A DNA stretch of 64,000 nucleotides from assembly GCA_902626575.1 (NCBI GenBank), contig CACOFY010000001.1:62001-126000 (forward strand), read 5' to 3'. The notes under the pieces were generated by a model. It saw only the letters and a program-made list of their open reading frames with translations, was not told where the DNA came from and ran no database searches. How positions within the stretch are numbered: position 1 is the stretch's first letter; the number at the start of each line of letters is the position of its first letter. The stretch comes from an uncultured Pelagibacteraceae bacterium. GTDB taxonomy: Bacteria; Pseudomonadota; Alphaproteobacteria; Pelagibacterales; Pelagibacteraceae. Positions 5,503-34,190 of the stretch are shown here, one piece after another. Both the position numbers and the translations under genes were made by a program.

Positions 5503-6948
5503 ATGTCCAATTATAAAACAGTTTTTTTTACACTAGGTATTTTACAGATAATACTTGGAATTTTTATGATTATTCCAATAACTGTACAATTTATATTTGG
5601 TGAATTTGACTCGTCATTTATCCTAGCCTTAATTATCACCATTATATTTGGGACACTTTTTATTATTACAAATTTAGATTACGATAAAAAACTGGACCTG
5701 CAACAAGCTTTTTTACTTACCTCTTTATCTTGGATTACAGTTGCAATTTTTGGATCACTTCCAATTTTTTTTTCAAGTTTAGACTTATCTTTTACAGACT
5801 CATTTTTTGAAAGTATGTCAGGTATAACTACGACAGGTTCAACTATAATTGCAAATCTTGAAAGTGCACCAAAAAGTATATTGCTTTGGAGAGCTATACT
5901 TCAGTGGTTAGGAGGGATTGGTATAATCGTTATGGCAATAACTCTTATGCCAATAATGAACGTTGGTGGAATGCTATTATTTAAAGTTCTTAATACAGAC
6001 TCCTCAAATGAAATTTTGCCATCTTCTAAAGAAATATCGATAAAACTTATTCTGATTTATTTAGGTTTAACATTTGCTTGTAGCTTTTCTTATAAGATAT
6101 TTGGAATGAATATTTTTGACAGTATTACTCATTCGATGACAACCATAGCGACAGGTGGTTTTTCAAATTACAACCAATCTATTGGTCATTTTAATAGTGC
6201 TAAAATTGAATTTACTTCAATTATTTTTATTTTAATGGGTAGTATTCCATTTATTGCTTACGTGAAATTTATTAATGGAAATCGAAAAATATTTATCAAT
6301 GACACCCAAATTCAGACTTTTTTAAAATTAATTTTAATATCTATTTTAATCTTATTTCTTTATTTATTTTTAAAAAATGGGAAAGTAGTATTCTTAGACT
6401 TTCGATCAATTATTTTTAATATTGTATCTATATTAACAGGAACAGGTTATGTATCTGGAAATTATGATAAATGGGGAAGTTTCCCACTTCTATATTTTTT
6501 AATTTTAATGTTTATTGGTGGGTGCGCTGGATCAACTACGTGTGGTATAAAAATTTTCAGAGTTCAAATACTTTATAAATTTGTTGTTAATCAATTGAAA
6601 AAATTTATTTATCCAAGAGGTATATTTGTTATTAAATATGAAAATAGCACTGTTAACGATAAGTTTTTAGCATCAATAATTTCTTTTATTTTTTTGTACA
6701 TTATAATTTTTTTTATAATAACAGCATTATTATCTTTAACTGGGCTTGATTTTATTACCTCAATTTCTGGAGCAGCAACTTCAATATCAAATGTTGGTCC
6801 AGGATTGGGTTCTGTAATAGGATCTAATGGTAATTTTTCAAGTTTACCAGATTTATCTAAATGGGTATTAAGTATAGGAATGATATTAGGAAGATTGGAA
6901 TTATTCGCGATTTTAATTCTATTTCTTCCTTCATTTTGGAAAAAATGA
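5503..6948 (+). CDS. trkH: TrkH-family potassium uptake protein
   Basis: Repeated pore segments SGITTTGSTI, TTIATGGFSN, GGCAGSTTCGIKIFR. Confidence 0.92.
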   Translation: MSNYKTVFFTLGILQIILGIFMIIPITVQFIFGEFDSSFILALIITIIFGTLFIITNLDYDKKLDLQQAFLLTSLSWITVAIFGSLPIFFSSLDLSFTDSFFESMSGITTTGSTIIANLESAPKSILLWRAILQWLGGIGIIVMAITLMPIMNVGGMLLFKVLNTDSSNEILPSSKEISIKLILIYLGLTFACSFSYKIFGMNIFDSITHSMTTIATGGFSNYNQSIGHFNSAKIEFTSIIFILMGSIPFIAYVKFINGNRKIFINDTQIQTFLKLILISILILFLYLFLKNGKVVFLDFRSIIFNIVSILTGTGYVSGNYDKWGSFPLLYFLILMFIGGCAGSTTCGIKIFRVQILYKFVVNQLKKFIYPRGIFVIKYENSTVNDKFLASIISFIFLYIIIFFIITALLSLTGLDFITSISGAATSISNVGPGLGSVIGSNGNFSSLPDLSKWVLSIGMILGRLELFAILILFLPSFWKK

Positions 6949-28589: not shown

Positions 28590-28603
28590 TTAGGAGTGTA
28601 TTG
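28590..28603. repeat. Copy of lpd 3'-end sequence TTAGGAGTGTATTG (putative attachment core, left)
   Basis: 14 bp identical to 32790-32803, which encodes the last codons of lpd. Confidence 0.6.
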
Positions 28604-28675
28604 TTGTTTTAAGCAACAGTCTATAATCTTTGTTCCTCGTAGCTTTTTCGATCAAACCAATTTTTTTTCTTTCCA

Positions 28676-28696
28676 TACCAAGAATTTACCAAGAAT
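28676..28696. repeat. Tandem 11-bp direct repeat TACCAAGAATT/TACCAAGAATG (left, inside putative island)
   Basis: TACCAAGAAT at 28676 and 28687; same motif as in 32620-32675. Confidence 0.75.
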
Positions 28697-28783
28697 GAAG
28701 AATGTTTTCAAAATTTTTTTACGGTTATAAACATATTATCTAACTATTTTTACTCTGTTTATTATATCGATTGCTAAGTAAAT

Positions 28784-30277
28784 TTATTTTAATGCCATCC
28801 AAGAAATTATTGCGGTAGAATTGTTTGGATTAATATTAGCATTAATTAATATAATTAATAAAATTACTAAAAAGTAAGACAAAACTCCATAACGAGTGCT
28901 TAATTTTTCGATATTATTTCCTAAAAGTTGATTTGTTTTAAGCAATCTAAAAGAGACAACGCTCAAGATATTTGGAATTACCGCATAAATGTATGATGTC
29001 AAAATAATCCAATCTAATACTGTTAAATACTCTAATTTAGGCAATTCCGAGTCGATTACAAAATTGTAAGCAATTAAAGACAGTAGACATACTATCGTGA
29101 CAGTCAGTCTAGCCTCAAGCTCTTTTGGATCAATCCAAACTACTAACCAGCATACTGACAAAATTAATACTATAGGCAAAATAACTTTATACAAATAATA
29201 GCTATGTTTACGCTCTATAACCATTGATAACTCTATTCCAGTTGCGTAATCATCCTCCATGAAAAATGGATTTTGATAATTTAAAATATTAAAATCAAAA
29301 GATTTTATATTCCATCCAGGAATATCATTATTATCTTTTATGTTTGATAATGATAAGTATGAAAGACTACTTTCAAACAGCACAGTATTTGGAATTCTTT
29401 GAAAATCATCAATAATTTTAATTCGTACAGTTTGCTTATCGAATGGAAATGTTTTTAAGTTAAATTTATTTTTTATCGAATATGTTCCTCCTAATTCAGA
29501 AGAAATAAACAAATATTCATCTGAGTTTCCAAGTTTTGTTGAATATGGGGACAATTCATATGTTTTATTATCAACTAAATCTTTATCAGATTTAACTTCA
29601 TTTAGAATTTTGAATCCTTTCTCTGGAGGGTATAGTTTTAAGTCATTAAATTGTTTTTGAGTATAATCACAAACATAGTAAGTGTAAGATCCATCGTCTA
29701 ATTTTAAAATTATATTTTCTTCTACAACGTTCCAAAGTTCAGGGTGACTTTCGGATAAATGCCTTGAAAAAATATCATACTTCATAGAGAATTCGACAAT
29801 ACCGTTTTTTGTATCAATTTTATTAAAATCCAAATATTTGATATCTAATATTGGATTAAAAGTGGTATACTTTGACTTGGTTATTTTCTTTTTGATAATC
29901 TCCTCTTTATTCAATATTTCAAATTCAATTGTATCGTTTTCATTCAGTATTTCAGGGCTAAAATTTTTTTGATTTGCTTTTAATATTTGATCACCCGCTT
30001 TAAAAAACTTTAAATGCTTAGGATCATAAATTCTTCCAACTTGAAAATTTCCATTTTCTTTAGTAAATTTCCAACTTTTAGAATTTTCGTCATATTTTTC
30101 CATAAGATCAAAACCAAAATTTTCAAAATCAACTGAACCTTTATATTTATAATTTAATTGAGCCAAATCATTACTAAATGTTTCACAATTTGATAATGCC
30201 GTATTAATATTTGACATAAGTAAAAAAATAACGATGATTTTTAATTTTAGCAAAATATTAAATAATTTTTTTCTCAT
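28784..30277 (-). CDS. Pentameric ligand-gated ion channel homologue with N-terminal PDZ-like region
   Basis: Signal peptide; FPFDKQTVRIKI (pro-loop-type FPFDxQ); MVIERKHSYYLYKVILPIVLILSVCWLVVWIDPKELEARLTVTIVCLLSLIAYNFVIDSELPKLEYLTVLDWIILTSYIYAVIP aligns by eye with GLIC M1-M3; VGRIYDPKHLKFFKAGDQILKANQKNFSPEI...IEFEILNKEEIIKKKI is PDZ-like. Confidence 0.85.
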   Translation of the reverse strand: MRKKLFNILLKLKIIVIFLLMSNINTALSNCETFSNDLAQLNYKYKGSVDFENFGFDLMEKYDENSKSWKFTKENGNFQVGRIYDPKHLKFFKAGDQILKANQKNFSPEILNENDTIEFEILNKEEIIKKKITKSKYTTFNPILDIKYLDFNKIDTKNGIVEFSMKYDIFSRHLSESHPELWNVVEENIILKLDDGSYTYYVCDYTQKQFNDLKLYPPEKGFKILNEVKSDKDLVDNKTYELSPYSTKLGNSDEYLFISSELGGTYSIKNKFNLKTFPFDKQTVRIKIIDDFQRIPNTVLFESSLSYLSLSNIKDNNDIPGWNIKSFDFNILNYQNPFFMEDDYATGIELSMVIERKHSYYLYKVILPIVLILSVCWLVVWIDPKELEARLTVTIVCLLSLIAYNFVIDSELPKLEYLTVLDWIILTSYIYAVIPNILSVVSFRLLKTNQLLGNNIEKLSTRYGVLSYFLVILLIILINANINPNNSTAIISWMALK

Positions 30278-30944
30278 TTTCTTTTTTTTTTTTACTTTGA
30301 ATCTTTTTTAGTTTTGAAAACATTTTTAAGGCTACAATCCATGAAACAATTATTAGGATAAGCGATATATAAAAGTTAGAAGTGGTAAATAAATTGTAAC
30401 ATCCATGTAAAGTGAAAGGGACTAAAAAAGCAAAAATTAAATTATCACCCTTTTTTATAAAAGCGTATCTCATAAAAAAGTAGCCCATGAAAACTCCAAA
30501 AATCCCGTGTGCAGGTACAGCTGAGAATGACCTTAGAAATGCCATGTAGATTGGTGTTGTTTCATAATAGTCAGCTAAAATATATACATAATAAAAGTTT
30601 TCTAAGGTTGCAAAACCAAGTGAAACAGCAACCCCATATACTATGCCATCGATGGGTTCATTAAAATCTTTCATTTTATAAACTAGAAAATATAAAACAG
30701 CTAACTTTAAACCTTCTTCGACTGGAGCTGCTGTAAAAAAAGAAGATCTAAGACCCTCGTCCATTTGTGTTGAAGCCCAAATTCCACTTAGATAAGTGTT
30801 AATAAAAAAAGCAGGTATTGTTATGAGAATTCCGTAAAAGAATACTTTAATTATCTCAGCATTAGGTTCTTTAAACTTATCTGATAGAACAAAGAATAAT
30901 ATTATAAGTATTGAGGGTAAAATTGTTGCTAACAGTAAAATCAT
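30258..30944 (-). CDS. PrsW-family intramembrane metalloprotease
   Basis: AAPVEEGLKLAVLYFL (EExxK), SFSAVPAHGIFGVFMGYFF, FTLHGCYNLF. Confidence 0.85.
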   Translation of the reverse strand: MILLLATILPSILIILFFVLSDKFKEPNAEIIKVFFYGILITIPAFFINTYLSGIWASTQMDEGLRSSFFTAAPVEEGLKLAVLYFLVYKMKDFNEPIDGIVYGVAVSLGFATLENFYYVYILADYYETTPIYMAFLRSFSAVPAHGIFGVFMGYFFMRYAFIKKGDNLIFAFLVPFTLHGCYNLFTTSNFYISLILIIVSWIVALKMFSKLKKIQSKKKKENEKKII

Positions 30945-31405
30945 TAACTTTTTTCAATTGTTGTTTTAATTTTTAAAATTTTATTCTCCAATGCTTCAAA
31001 AGCATCAAAAATTTCCTTTTTTTCTATTCCTGAGATTTGTTCACCTTTGTGACCCTCTGGATTTTTTGCAGTATTTATGACATCCATTAATTGCCCATGC
31101 AAAATTGTAAATTTTATGAGAAGTTCGTTTAAATCTTGTTGGGATCCTTTAGTATTTTTGATCTCTTTTAAAATTATATATTCGTGGGCTCTTAACAAAT
31201 AAGGTGTTAAACCTCTCTCAACGCATGCTTTATCTATTTTTACAGCATCTTTATGATCCAATTGTTGATCTAAATCAGGGTCGCTGCACTTTCTTAAAAA
31301 TGACTCACTTTTTCCAGTTACCTCTTCAATAACCTTTGACTTAAGATTTTTTATTGCTTCTGTAAGTCCGTGTTCAATTGACGATATTTGTCTTAGCTTT
31401 GCCAT
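30944..31405 (-). CDS. Hypothetical protein with possible HTH (phage CII/regulator-like)
   Basis: EEVTGKSESFLRKCSDPDLDQQLDHKDAVKIDKACVERGLTPYLLRAHEYI; TAATG overlap with PrsW gene. Family call is weak. Confidence 0.45.
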   Translation of the reverse strand: MAKLRQISSIEHGLTEAIKNLKSKVIEEVTGKSESFLRKCSDPDLDQQLDHKDAVKIDKACVERGLTPYLLRAHEYIILKEIKNTKGSQQDLNELLIKFTILHGQLMDVINTAKNPEGHKGEQISGIEKKEIFDAFEALENKILKIKTTIEKS

Positions 31406-31433
31406 ATCTTAAAATGAAATTCTAATACAATTT

Positions 31434-31472
31434 TTGGACAAATAAAAACTAATAAAATAAGTTTTTGTCCAA
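31434..31472. promoter_or_regulatory. Inverted repeat TTGGACAAA...TTTGTCCAA, putative operator of the minus-strand operon
   Basis: 9-bp perfect arms (31434-31442 / 31464-31472), just downstream on the minus strand of a promoter-like CTTGTA-N16-TAATAT. Confidence 0.55.
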
Positions 31473-31543
31473 TATTATCCACCTCTTTTCACATACAAGA
31501 AATTCTAATCGTTATTATTTTAATTTTATAACGAAAGGAAAAA

Positions 31544-31648
31544 ATGAACTACTTAATAAACTTTAAACCAATTCAGATCAATAATGATCTTGATTTAGTT
31601 AAAAATATAGAAAGGAGGTTATATGAAAAAGTTAGCTTTGATAGTTAG
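31544..31648 (+). CDS. Possible 34-aa leader ORF overlapping the repeat peptide
   Basis: ATG after AAAGGAAAAA; MNYLINFKPIQINNDLDLVKNIERRLYEKVSFDS; its 3' end overlaps the SD and start of the next ORF. Confidence 0.3.
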   Translation: MNYLINFKPIQINNDLDLVKNIERRLYEKVSFDS

Positions 31649-31802
31649 TTTAATATCTATGGTTGCTACTTCATCGCAGGCATTTACGTATAGTTCGCCT
31701 AACATTTACGGTGGATACAACTATTATGGTAACGGATCATTTGGATGGTCATCTCCAAATATATACGGTGGATATAATTACTACGGTAATATGTTCAATT
31801 AA
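31623..31802 (+). CDS. Secreted Gly/Tyr-rich small protein (59 aa) with two SSPNIYGGYNYYGN repeats; absent from the ORF track
   Basis: AAAGGAGGTTATATG start; MKKLALIVSLISMVATSSQAFTYSSPNIYGGYNYYGNGSFGWSSPNIYGGYNYYGNMFN; signal peptide; repeats identical in protein but mostly differing in codons. Confidence 0.85.
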   Translation: MKKLALIVSLISMVATSSQAFTYSSPNIYGGYNYYGNGSFGWSSPNIYGGYNYYGNMFN

Positions 31803-31809
31803 TGTAAAG

Positions 31810-31831
31810 GGCCCCTCAGTAATGAGGGGCC
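31810..31831. other. GC-rich perfect hairpin GGCCCCTC-AGTAAT-GAGGGGCC
   Basis: 8-bp stem, 6-nt loop just after the repeat-peptide stop; no T-tract on the + strand. Confidence 0.75.
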
Positions 31832-31845
31832 AAAAGAAAGTGAAA

Positions 31846-32220
31846 ATGAAAAAATTAATTTGTAAAAATTGTGGACATAAAGAAACTTTAGAAAATATTA
31901 ATTTAAGTATAAGTACAAAAATACTTATTGTAAAAATACCAAGAATTAGGGCTAAAGATGGTTTGCACATTTACCCTCTTTATTGCCTAAAATGTAACTA
32001 TATAACTGAATGGGCTTCAGACCCTTATAATCATTCTGGCAAAGCAATTGATGGGGTTGAATATTTTAAGAAATTCAAAATCAACAACAAGTATAAAAAC
32101 TATTTTCAGAATACTAAAAATAATTTAGTCAATAGAGGCTATACAAAATCTGAGTATATTAAGTTTTCTTTAGCGTGGTTTTTAATTTTATCTGGAATAC
32201 TGGCTTTTTTTCAGTCTTAA
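31846..32220 (+). CDS. Zinc-ribbon protein with C-terminal transmembrane segment
   Basis: MKKLICKNCGHKET...YCLKCNYITEW (CxxC pairs); FSLAWFLILSGILAFFQS. The ORF track start at 31663 is in the same frame but overlaps the repeat peptide. Confidence 0.75.
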   Translation: MKKLICKNCGHKETLENINLSISTKILIVKIPRIRAKDGLHIYPLYCLKCNYITEWASDPYNHSGKAIDGVEYFKKFKINNKYKNYFQNTKNNLVNRGYTKSEYIKFSLAWFLILSGILAFFQS

Positions 32221-32221
32221 T

Positions 32222-32539
32222 TTAGACAGCACCAGTAAGGATATCTCTAAACTGAATTATTATTCCGAGAACAACTGCAACTTTTGCTAATACCGCCCAA
32301 TGTTTGGGGCCTTTATATTTATCTGATGATCTCCATATTCCAACAGTCGTATATATTAACCAAGGTATTATCAAACCATAAACTGCATGAAAATGAAGTC
32401 CAATACTTAGTATTATGAGGGCACTTACAAAACCAAAAGCAGCACTTAAAAGGACACCTACAAGCCAATAAGATTTTACTAAAGAAACATCTCCATTCCA
32501 AAAATCTACAAAGAAATTATTATTTTTTTTTCTAGCCAT
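32222..32539 (-). CDS. Small membrane protein of unknown function
   Basis: 105 aa with hydrophobic helices LVGVLLSAAFGFVSALIILSIG and VYGLIIPWLIYTTVGIW. Confidence 0.65.
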   Translation of the reverse strand: MARKKNNNFFVDFWNGDVSLVKSYWLVGVLLSAAFGFVSALIILSIGLHFHAVYGLIIPWLIYTTVGIWRSSDKYKGPKHWAVLAKVAVVLGIIIQFRDILTGAV

Positions 32540-32619
32540 ACAAAAGCTTATATGAATTATGAACGTTGGTAAATAAAAAGAAGAACTAACTACTGATTCA
32601 AAAGGACAATACAGTCCCG

Positions 32620-32675
32620 TACCAAGATTTTACCAAGAGGTTTTTGAGATCCTTACCAAGATTTTACCAAGAATT
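32620..32675. repeat. Two tandem pairs of TACCAAGAWTT (11-bp spacing)
   Basis: TACCAAGA at 32620, 32631, 32654, 32665; same orientation as the left-end pair. Confidence 0.8.
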
Positions 32676-32789: not shown

Positions 32790-34190
32790 TTAGGAGTGTA
32801 TTGCTCTTTTATCCACAGATAAGGCTGCCTCTTTTACAGCTTCTGAAAAAGTAGGGTGTGCATGACAAGTTCTAGCAATATCTTCAGAACTTGCGCCGAA
32901 TTCCATTGCAACTGCCATCTCCGCAATTAATTCTCCTGCATGTGGACCTATTAAATGTACTCCGAGCACCTTATCAGTTTTTTCATCTGCAAGTATTTTT
33001 ACAAATCCCTCGGCCTCGTTAATCGCTTTTGCTCTAGAGTTTGCCATAAAAGAAAATTTGCCAACTTTATATTTAATTTTCTTTTCATTTAGCTTTTCCT
33101 CTGTTTCTCCTACTGTTGCTACCTCTGGTGTTGTATAAATTACTCCTGGTATAACATCATAATTTACATGCCCAGCTTGTCCTGCGATTAGCTCAGCAAC
33201 TGCAATACCTTCTTCTTCCGCCTTATGTGCAAGCATTGGTCCATCAATAACATCGCCAATAGCATAAATATTTTTAATACTTGTCTCAAAGTTTTTATTT
33301 ACCTGAACTCTCATTTTGCTATCTAATTTTACTCCGACATTATCTAAATTTAAATTTTTTGTATTTGGTTTTCTACCTACAGAAACCAAAACTACATCTG
33401 TTTCCATTTGAATTTTTTTTCCATCTTTGCTTTGAATTGTAACGGTGGCAGAGTCACTATTTTTTTTAATATTCTCAACTTTAGTCTCCATATGGAAATT
33501 TATTCCTTGTTTCTTTAAAATTTTCATAAATTCCTTTGAAATTTCTTTATCCATTCCTGGTGTAATATGATCTAAAAATTCAACAACGTGAACCTCTGAA
33601 CCAAGTCTAGACCAAACCGAACCCATCTCTAATCCAATATAACCTCCACCCACAATAAGCATTTTTTTTGGAACACTTTTTAAAGATAATGCTCCAGTAG
33701 AAGAAACTATAATTTTTTCATCGAATTTTGCACCTGGTAATTCCGATGCTTCTGATCCAGTGGAAATTATAATTTTATCAGTATCTAATAATATTTCTTT
33801 ATTATTTAAATCTATTATTTTAACTTGATTATTTTTAGTAAGACTACCTGTTCCTTTAAAATATGAGACTTTATTTTTTTTGAATAAAAACTCTACTCCT
33901 TTTGTCAAAACATCAACTGCCTTATCTTTATTTTTCATCATTTTTTCTAAATTTAACTTTATTTGACCAACCTCTATACCTAATTGATCAAATGATTTAG
34001 CTTTATGGAAATTTTCAGATAGGTTTAAAAGACTTTTAGAAGGAATACATCCTACATTTAGGCATGTACCTCCCAACGTACCTCTTGACTCAACACATGC
34101 AGTTTTGAATCCTAGTTGGGCAAGCCTTATTGCACAAACATAACCACCCGGTCCACCACCGATCACAACTGCTTGAAATTTCTCAGACAT
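32790..34190 (-). CDS. lpd: Dihydrolipoyl dehydrogenase
   Basis: GGGPGGYVCAIRLAQLG, GGTCLNVGCIPSKSLL, HAHPTFSEAVKEAA. Confidence 0.97.
   Translation of the reverse strand: MSEKFQAVVIGGGPGGYVCAIRLAQLGFKTACVESRGTLGGTCLNVGCIPSKSLLNLSENFHKAKSFDQLGIEVGQIKLNLEKMMKNKDKAVDVLTKGVEFLFKKNKVSYFKGTGSLTKNNQVKIIDLNNKEILLDTDKIIISTGSEASELPGAKFDEKIIVSSTGALSLKSVPKKMLIVGGGYIGLEMGSVWSRLGSEVHVVEFLDHITPGMDKEISKEFMKILKKQGINFHMETKVENIKKNSDSATVTIQSKDGKKIQMETDVVLVSVGRKPNTKNLNLDNVGVKLDSKMRVQVNKNFETSIKNIYAIGDVIDGPMLAHKAEEEGIAVAELIAGQAGHVNYDVIPGVIYTTPEVATVGETEEKLNEKKIKYKVGKFSFMANSRAKAINEAEGFVKILADEKTDKVLGVHLIGPHAGELIAEMAVAMEFGASSEDIARTCHAHPTFSEAVKEAALSVDKRAIHS

Follow-up and report, generated by a model that had tools for sequence, protein, structure and literature searches.

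The three-gene operon and its proteins

The window analysed here is a stretch of 64,000 nucleotides from an uncultured Pelagibacteraceae bacterium (genome G000; GenBank assembly GCA_902626575.1, contig CACOFY010000001.1, positions 62,001 to 126,000). Between its lpd and priA genes lies an operon of three overlapping genes, which encode a CII-like putative regulator of the Phage_CP76 family (here referred to as CP76), a PrsW-family intramembrane protease and a pentameric ligand-gated ion channel (pLGIC) with a PDZ-type N-terminal domain (Table 1). This operon is very probably the cargo of a non-autonomous integrative mobile cassette of about 4.2 kb that has no integrase.

Table 1. Features of the cassette in the window (aa, amino acids; ECD, extracellular domain; TM, transmembrane)
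Feature	Position	Strand	Basis or remark
PDZ-pLGIC	28784..30277	-	497 aa; open reading frame matches; domain bounds approximate
Channel parts			Signal peptide aa 1-30; PDZ-type domain 31-139; ligand-binding-type ECD with FPFD Pro-loop 140-358; four-TM pore with E-2' 359-497
PDZ-type N-terminal domain of channel, aa 31-139	29861..30187	-	Homologue PF00595 matches; fastest-evolving part, dN/dS 0.38
PrsW-family intramembrane protease	30258..30944	-	228 aa; PF13367 E 3.2e-35 and alignment
CII-like (Phage_CP76) putative DNA-binding regulator	30944..31405	-	153 aa; PF06892 over cut-off; PHROG 101
Operator-like inverted repeat TTGGACAAA-N21-TTTGTCCAA	31434..31472		39 bp, upstream of CP76; 0.00 expected by chance
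Small secreted peptide with signal sequence and two SPNIYGGYNYYGN repeats	31623..31802	+	59 aa; translation; divergent from operon
Terminator-like hairpin after peptide gene	31810..31831		Hairpin
Cys-rich (zinc-ribbon-like) membrane protein	31846..32220	+	124 aa; cassette-associated; alternative call starts one codon later
Membrane protein	32222..32539	-	105 aa; cassette-associated family, 18 near and 0 far (neighbourhood clustering)
Core repeat CAATACACTCCTAA, priA-side copy, distal element end	28590..28603	-	Two exact copies in 64 kb
Core repeat CAATACACTCCTAA, lpd-side copy, last codons of lpd	32790..32803	-	Repeat count and relatives' empty site
Arm-type direct repeat TTGGTAAATTCTTGGTA	28676..28692	-	TTGGTA-N5-TTGGTA pattern
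Arm-type direct repeat TTGGTAAAATCTTGGTA	32620..32636	-	TTGGTA-N5-TTGGTA pattern
Arm-type direct repeat TTGGTAAAATCTTGGTA	32654..32670	-	TTGGTA-N5-TTGGTA pattern

A sequence-only reading of the window had proposed these three minus-strand genes, and we recovered them with identical coordinates and strands. The overlaps that it named are also present, namely one nucleotide in a TAATG at 30944 between the CP76 and PrsW genes and 20 nt between the PrsW and pLGIC genes. Searches with hidden Markov models placed the protease and the channel in the PrsW and pLGIC families, as had been proposed; the PrsW match lies over its cut-off. The inverted repeat noted upstream of the operon is real and is kept upstream of CP76 in relatives, and the promoter claimed there is not clearly above chance: the element holds 35 sigma-70-like sites, compared with 25 +/- 4.5 in shuffled sequences.

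Judged by its sequence, the 497-aa protein is a divergent bacterial member of the pLGIC family. It matches LGIC_1 (E 1.1e-30) and PF02932 (E 4e-4) without reaching their curated cut-offs (107 bits against 500 and 21 bits against 28.1, respectively), and the closest solved structures in the PDB are GLIC and ELIC (E ~1e-15, aa 267-448). The hallmarks of the family are present, including the FPFD Pro-loop, the pre-M1 Arg and four TM helices, and F277, P278, D280 and R356 are invariant in 33 channel homologues. Its M2 helix has Glu at -2'. The M2 register with E-2' suggests that the channel is cation-selective. The description of the protein as "PDZ-like" stands for the family, since PF00595 matches 14 of the 33 homologues (best E 7.1e-6) and PDZ_6 and PDZ_2 match five each, but not for the window protein alone. 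Moreover, C31 and C203 are near-invariant in the homologues and may form a disulfide that links the N-terminal domain to the ECD. AlphaFold models of the channel and of CP76 were too poor for a fold search, with predicted local distance difference test (pLDDT) scores of 36 and 50.

GLIC, ELIC and DeCLIC share with this protein the Pro-loop ECD and the four-TM channel. DeCLIC (PMC9897478) also has an extra N-terminal domain, which consists of two jelly-roll lobes, whereas that of the SAR11 channel is of PDZ type. The SAR11 channel differs from all three in its two additional conserved Cys and in sharing an operon on a mobile element with PrsW and a CII-like regulator. The pLGIC fusions and operons described by Tasneem et al. 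(PMC549065) likewise combine bacterial channels with accessory sensory domains and with partners that are conserved in the operon; PDZ, peptidase and protease are words absent from that paper. The locus bears on the question of what bacteria use neurotransmitter-receptor-type channels for.

The 228-aa protein is, from its profile match and alignment, a member of the PrsW family and not the equivalog, for which the NCBIfam cut-off was not reached (145.8 bits against 225). Its motifs E76-E77-xx-K80, E115, H146 and H180 are invariant in 13 relatives. PrsW is known from Bacillus as the site-1 protease of the RsiW/sigma-W pathway (PMC3498285); the EExxK and His motifs are alike, but the element has no gene for an anti-sigma or extracytoplasmic function sigma factor, and the partner here is an ion channel. 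PrsW domains have also been proposed to be toxin-releasing peptidases in polymorphic toxins (PMC3482391). There, too, PrsW is tied to mobile conflict loci; however, it is fused to toxin domains in those systems, whereas in SAR11 a free-standing PrsW gene overlaps a channel gene.

The 153-aa protein matches Phage_CP76 with 28.6 bits (cut-off 26) and the CII-like activator family PHROG 101 with E 1.8e-5, and an NCBIfam search gave it no name. The Phage_CP76 match is weaker in divergent CP76 members. Two orphan CP76-like genes were observed near other ion channels elsewhere. One (L177, 8369-12536) is separated by a PD-(D/E)XK nuclease from a protein whose Castor/Pollux match stays below threshold, and the other (L178, 3-678) lies near an Ion_trans protein truncated where the contig ends. 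A CII-like regulator family is repeatedly tied to ion channels.

Linkage of the genes in SAR11 and beyond

We surveyed 397 genomes across the order. Metagenome-assembled genomes are incomplete (the window genome is 78% complete), and the genomes of the survey are related, so that p-values are nominal. A pLGIC was found in 45 genomes, PrsW over its cut-off in 47 and both in 26, compared with 5.3 expected (Fisher p 3e-16, uncorrected for shared ancestry). In all 26 genomes the two genes lie on one contig, at most 6.7 kb apart. In all 12 cassettes in which PrsW directly follows CP76, the CP76 stop and the PrsW start overlap by exactly 1 nt, and the PrsW and pLGIC genes overlap, PrsW first, in 11 cassettes; the order is reversed, with pLGIC before PrsW, in G048 and G111. 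CP76 is rare elsewhere, being found in only 2 of 36 control genomes that have neither PrsW nor pLGIC. CP76 is directly followed by a PDZ-pLGIC in G679, which belongs to another order and has no PrsW in its genome. Because CP76 and PDZ-pLGIC are joined there outside the order and without PrsW, their association appears to be the widest one, to which PrsW would be a later but strong addition.

The sequence-only reading had regarded protease and channel as one regulated unit. This is well supported, since PrsW and pLGIC remain neighbours with overlapping reading frames in many SAR11 genomes and at several places in the chromosome, and both families are confirmed. The mechanism suggested in that reading, in which PrsW would cleave the channel in a membrane-stress response, is hypothetical. 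That reading overlooked that the genes are the cargo of a mobile element. The picture also changes in that the CP76-PDZ-pLGIC linkage appears to be wider than the PrsW-pLGIC one. We consider it likely that CP76, PrsW and PDZ-pLGIC form one functional unit. Alternatively, PrsW and pLGIC could be unrelated cargo, sharing islands merely through the build-up of accessory genes at a few SAR11 integration sites, as the mosaic nature of the elements and the occurrence of each gene alone would allow. This is very improbable in our estimate, given that the overlapping frames are kept in 11-12 cassettes whose pLGICs are down to ~31% identical to that of the window, and that the linkage recurs at several chromosomal sites under one conserved operator-like repeat. 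A full-text literature search for PrsW with a ligand-gated ion channel, in which subscription journals were mostly outside coverage, returned no relevant paper. We rate the PrsW-pLGIC operon as one assembled from known parts.

The pLGIC tree has clades of PDZ channels accompanied by PrsW, of short channels accompanied by PrsW and an amine oxidase, of channels found beside CP76, caspase and trypsin-like genes, and of short channels that have neither. In seven cassettes (L080, L082, L087, L098, L101, L103 and L107) a second, PDZ-less short pLGIC has as its neighbour a flavin amine oxidase that bears a twin-arginine-like signal and so stands next to a possibly amine-gated channel.

Ends, insertion site and relatives of the cassette

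The 14-nt core CAATACACTCCTAA occurs exactly twice in the 64 kb, 4,200 bp apart, where 0.04 occurrences with at most one mismatch are expected. One copy, at the end of lpd, is present in the empty site of relatives; in most of the 27 relatives with lpd, priA starts 18-22 nt past the lpd stop. As in site-specific integrative elements, direct-repeat cores flank the insert and relatives retain the empty site. Furthermore, TTGGTA-N5-TTGGTA has three occurrences in the window (0.01 expected), all just inside the element ends. The search of the window for tRNA and Rfam families found no tRNA, so that the integration site here is not a tRNA gene; the sole Rfam match is the ffh small RNA (RF01793), far from the element.

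The cassette has been transferred as a unit between strains. Compared with strain AG-920-K13 (L016; hereafter K13), DNA identity is 90-99% over about 28,650-32,650, with dips to 78-88% over the part that encodes the periplasmic portion of the channel and to about 48% over the small peptide gene. The flanks are 70-82% identical in lpd and priA (lpd ~72%). Synonymous divergence (dS) from K13 is 0.03-0.30 for the cassette genes and about 2.7, near saturation, for lpd. The family of the 124-aa protein occurs only near these cassettes in the examined loci (six near, none far); the gene in the window shows 88-97% DNA identity to K13.

Sister cassettes are flanked by duplicated segments of tRNA-Met, -Leu or -Thr, 42-119 nt long and 92-100% identical. 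The smallest one, an insert of 1.56 kb in G149 (L131, 7903-9463), holds essentially a pLGIC alone between tRNA-Leu duplications, and a further copy of the tRNA-Leu segment is found at 6146 of that locus. A conserved 47-aa membrane protein (MTLKQYLIAGVIEQ...; L010, 4814-4957) lies near the far end of many sister cassettes and was not seen in the window element.

No integrase ORF (open reading frame) was found in the window element or in any cassette examined, and the window genome, as far as assembled, has no PF00589 match. A single PF00589 protein, probably Xer, is present in most of the genomes searched. Two other elements do encode a tyrosine integrase, together with DNA polymerase A (PolA) and a small terminase (TerS). 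One, in G255, stands in tandem at tRNA-Met with GTTGGTA arms (L217, G255 C9, 1715-10637), and a related one in G242 occupies precisely the lpd-priA site and has TCTTGGTT-type arms (L259, 2613-11600); no capsid genes were recognised in these satellite-like elements. Since they occupy tRNA-Met and lpd, the cassettes share attachment (att) sites with satellite-like elements, whose integrase may move them in trans. For the integrase of G255, no relative was found among viral contigs or phages. No pLGIC was found in viral contigs, phage or plasmid records, no CP76 in viral contigs and no PrsW in phages. A set of 38 arm-motif matches in IMG/VR was rejected as chance, since neither a core nor a related integrase lies close to any of them.

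Tycheposons, PICMIs and other hitchhiking satellites (PMC10872708, PMC10803314, PMC11389934) likewise integrate as islands into the genomes of marine and other bacteria, in several cases at tRNA genes, and some of them rely on helpers. The SAR11 cassette differs from them in having no integrase, replication or packaging gene; its more satellite-like relative is the SAR11 element that carries integrase, PolA and TerS and stands in tandem or at the same site. The cassette suggests a route by which very small integrase-less cassettes may move in streamlined genomes, through att sites shared with satellite-like elements.

Possible workings and alternatives

The upstream region and the evolution of the proteins bear on how the operon may work. 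Sister cassettes carry half-sites that match the inverted repeat at the same 30-nt spacing and lie 29-69 nt upstream of their CP76 gene; those of G158 are degenerate and those of G170 partial. Genes of a second CP76 subfamily (L101, L103, L106-L109) are preceded by another conserved inverted repeat, CCGTAGG...CCTACGG. The ratio of nonsynonymous to synonymous substitution rates (dN/dS), obtained from the single pair of G000 and K13, is 0.38 for the PDZ part, 0.28 for the ECD, 0.04 for the transmembrane domain, 0.07 for PrsW and 0.08 for CP76; the periplasmic part of the channel is thus evolving 6-9 times faster than the pore. Identity to G019 is 61% for the transmembrane domain, 28-30% for PDZ and ECD, 77% for PrsW and 84% for CP76. 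Conserved machinery combined with a periplasmic surface that changes is what would be expected of a recognition module.

We tentatively propose the following scheme. The CII-like protein would bind the 39-bp inverted repeat and control both the operon and the divergent peptide gene. The periplasmic PDZ domain and ECD, to judge from fold and fast evolution, may sense a periplasmic polypeptide or ligand, upon which a cation-selective pore with a hydrophobic gate would open and alter the membrane potential, as E-2', the FPFD loop and the pre-M1 Arg suggest. PrsW, its translation firmly coupled to that of the channel, might then adjust or trigger the response by intramembrane proteolysis; candidate substrates are the channel itself, the precursor of the peptide and a small cassette membrane protein. 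The element shares its att sites with SAR11 phage-satellite-like elements and would spread through these sites, probably with their integrase. Its likely benefit would be a response to attack by phages or on the envelope that is costly but worthwhile on occasion. Overall, the operon may encode a regulated sensor or effector that depolarises the membrane, plausibly directed against phages or envelope stress.

One alternative is that the channel is an environmental chemosensor gated by a small solute (amine, proton or Ca2+), with the role of PrsW confined to the turnover of an abundant membrane protein or the control of its quality. Characterised bacterial pLGICs do respond to such ligands: ELIC to GABA (PMC3430861) and DeCLIC to Ca2+ (PMC9897478). 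Tasneem et al. (PMC549065) predicted bacterial pLGICs to be chemoreceptors, and the amine oxidase beside the second, short pLGIC of sister cassettes points in the same direction. The window cassette, however, has no amine oxidase, and its ECD and PDZ domain diverge far faster than a fixed small ligand predicts. This explanation also leaves the conserved coupling to a CII-like regulator and the mobility unaccounted for. We regard it as unlikely.

Somewhat doubtful is a dedicated anti-phage module acting by abortive infection or superinfection exclusion, in which phage or satellite activity would be detected by the periplasmic part or by PrsW and answered by depolarisation of the cell through the channel, the whole being defence cargo on satellite att sites. 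It would agree with cargo of satellite-like elements at tRNA and lpd sites, patchy distribution, recent transfer and a fast-evolving sensor part, as well as with CP76 homologues beside other ion channels (Ion_trans; the Castor/Pollux match below cut-off) and caspase and trypsin-like proteases in related loci. Nevertheless, no PADLOC defence model matches any of the three operon proteins, known defence genes are absent from the window element, and non-defence genes are also carried on SAR11 islands.

The peptide gene leads to another explanation, a system of conflict or signalling in which the secreted peptide encoded divergently from the operon would act as ligand or toxin, with PDZ and ECD recognising it and PrsW processing it. 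Small peptides with signal sequences, of several unrelated types, adjoin CP76 at the same place in most CP76-PrsW-pLGIC cassettes. PDZ domains generally bind C-termini, and the toxin-releasing role proposed for PrsW domains (PMC3482391) would fit as well. However, the peptide has been swapped independently of channel type (K13 versus G000; G255 versus G412), which makes this explanation quite improbable. Peptide-channel specificity by co-inheritance was not supported.

We return to the reading of an integrase-less element that carries a co-regulated CP76-PrsW-PDZ-pLGIC operon and a divergent peptide gene and works in the proposed way. Several observations weigh against it. PDZ-pLGICs occur without PrsW in G039, G050, G047, G259, G364, G264 and G679, while PrsW is found without pLGIC in 21 genomes and also with other membrane partners; because each occurs alone, PrsW is dispensable for some PDZ-pLGICs. 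The K13 and G000 cassettes are near-identical, yet their peptides are unrelated. A dN/dS of 0.38 fits relaxed constraint too. In addition, lpd-site cassettes in G379, G391 and G300 have no recognisable second core, and the link to an integrase consists of shared sites only, with no mobilisation seen. Taken together, we put the probability of this full reading at about 0.45. Its boldest form is a mobile SAR11 immunity or conflict system, with the channel as depolarising effector, PDZ and ECD recognising polypeptides of phages or competitors or the cassette's own peptide, PrsW as switch and the CII-like protein as regulator, which would spread by parasitising satellite att sites. We think this form unlikely; such a system, if true, would be previously undescribed.

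Related loci hold further gene combinations. PrsW without pLGIC adjoins paired proteins of ~280 aa with N- and C-terminal TM segments and no Pfam match (L077, L079, L094, L106, L108, L109 and L110). In another island clade, caspase and trypsin-like protease genes stand beside pLGICs, mostly with CP76 (L116, L117, L118 and L122-L124).
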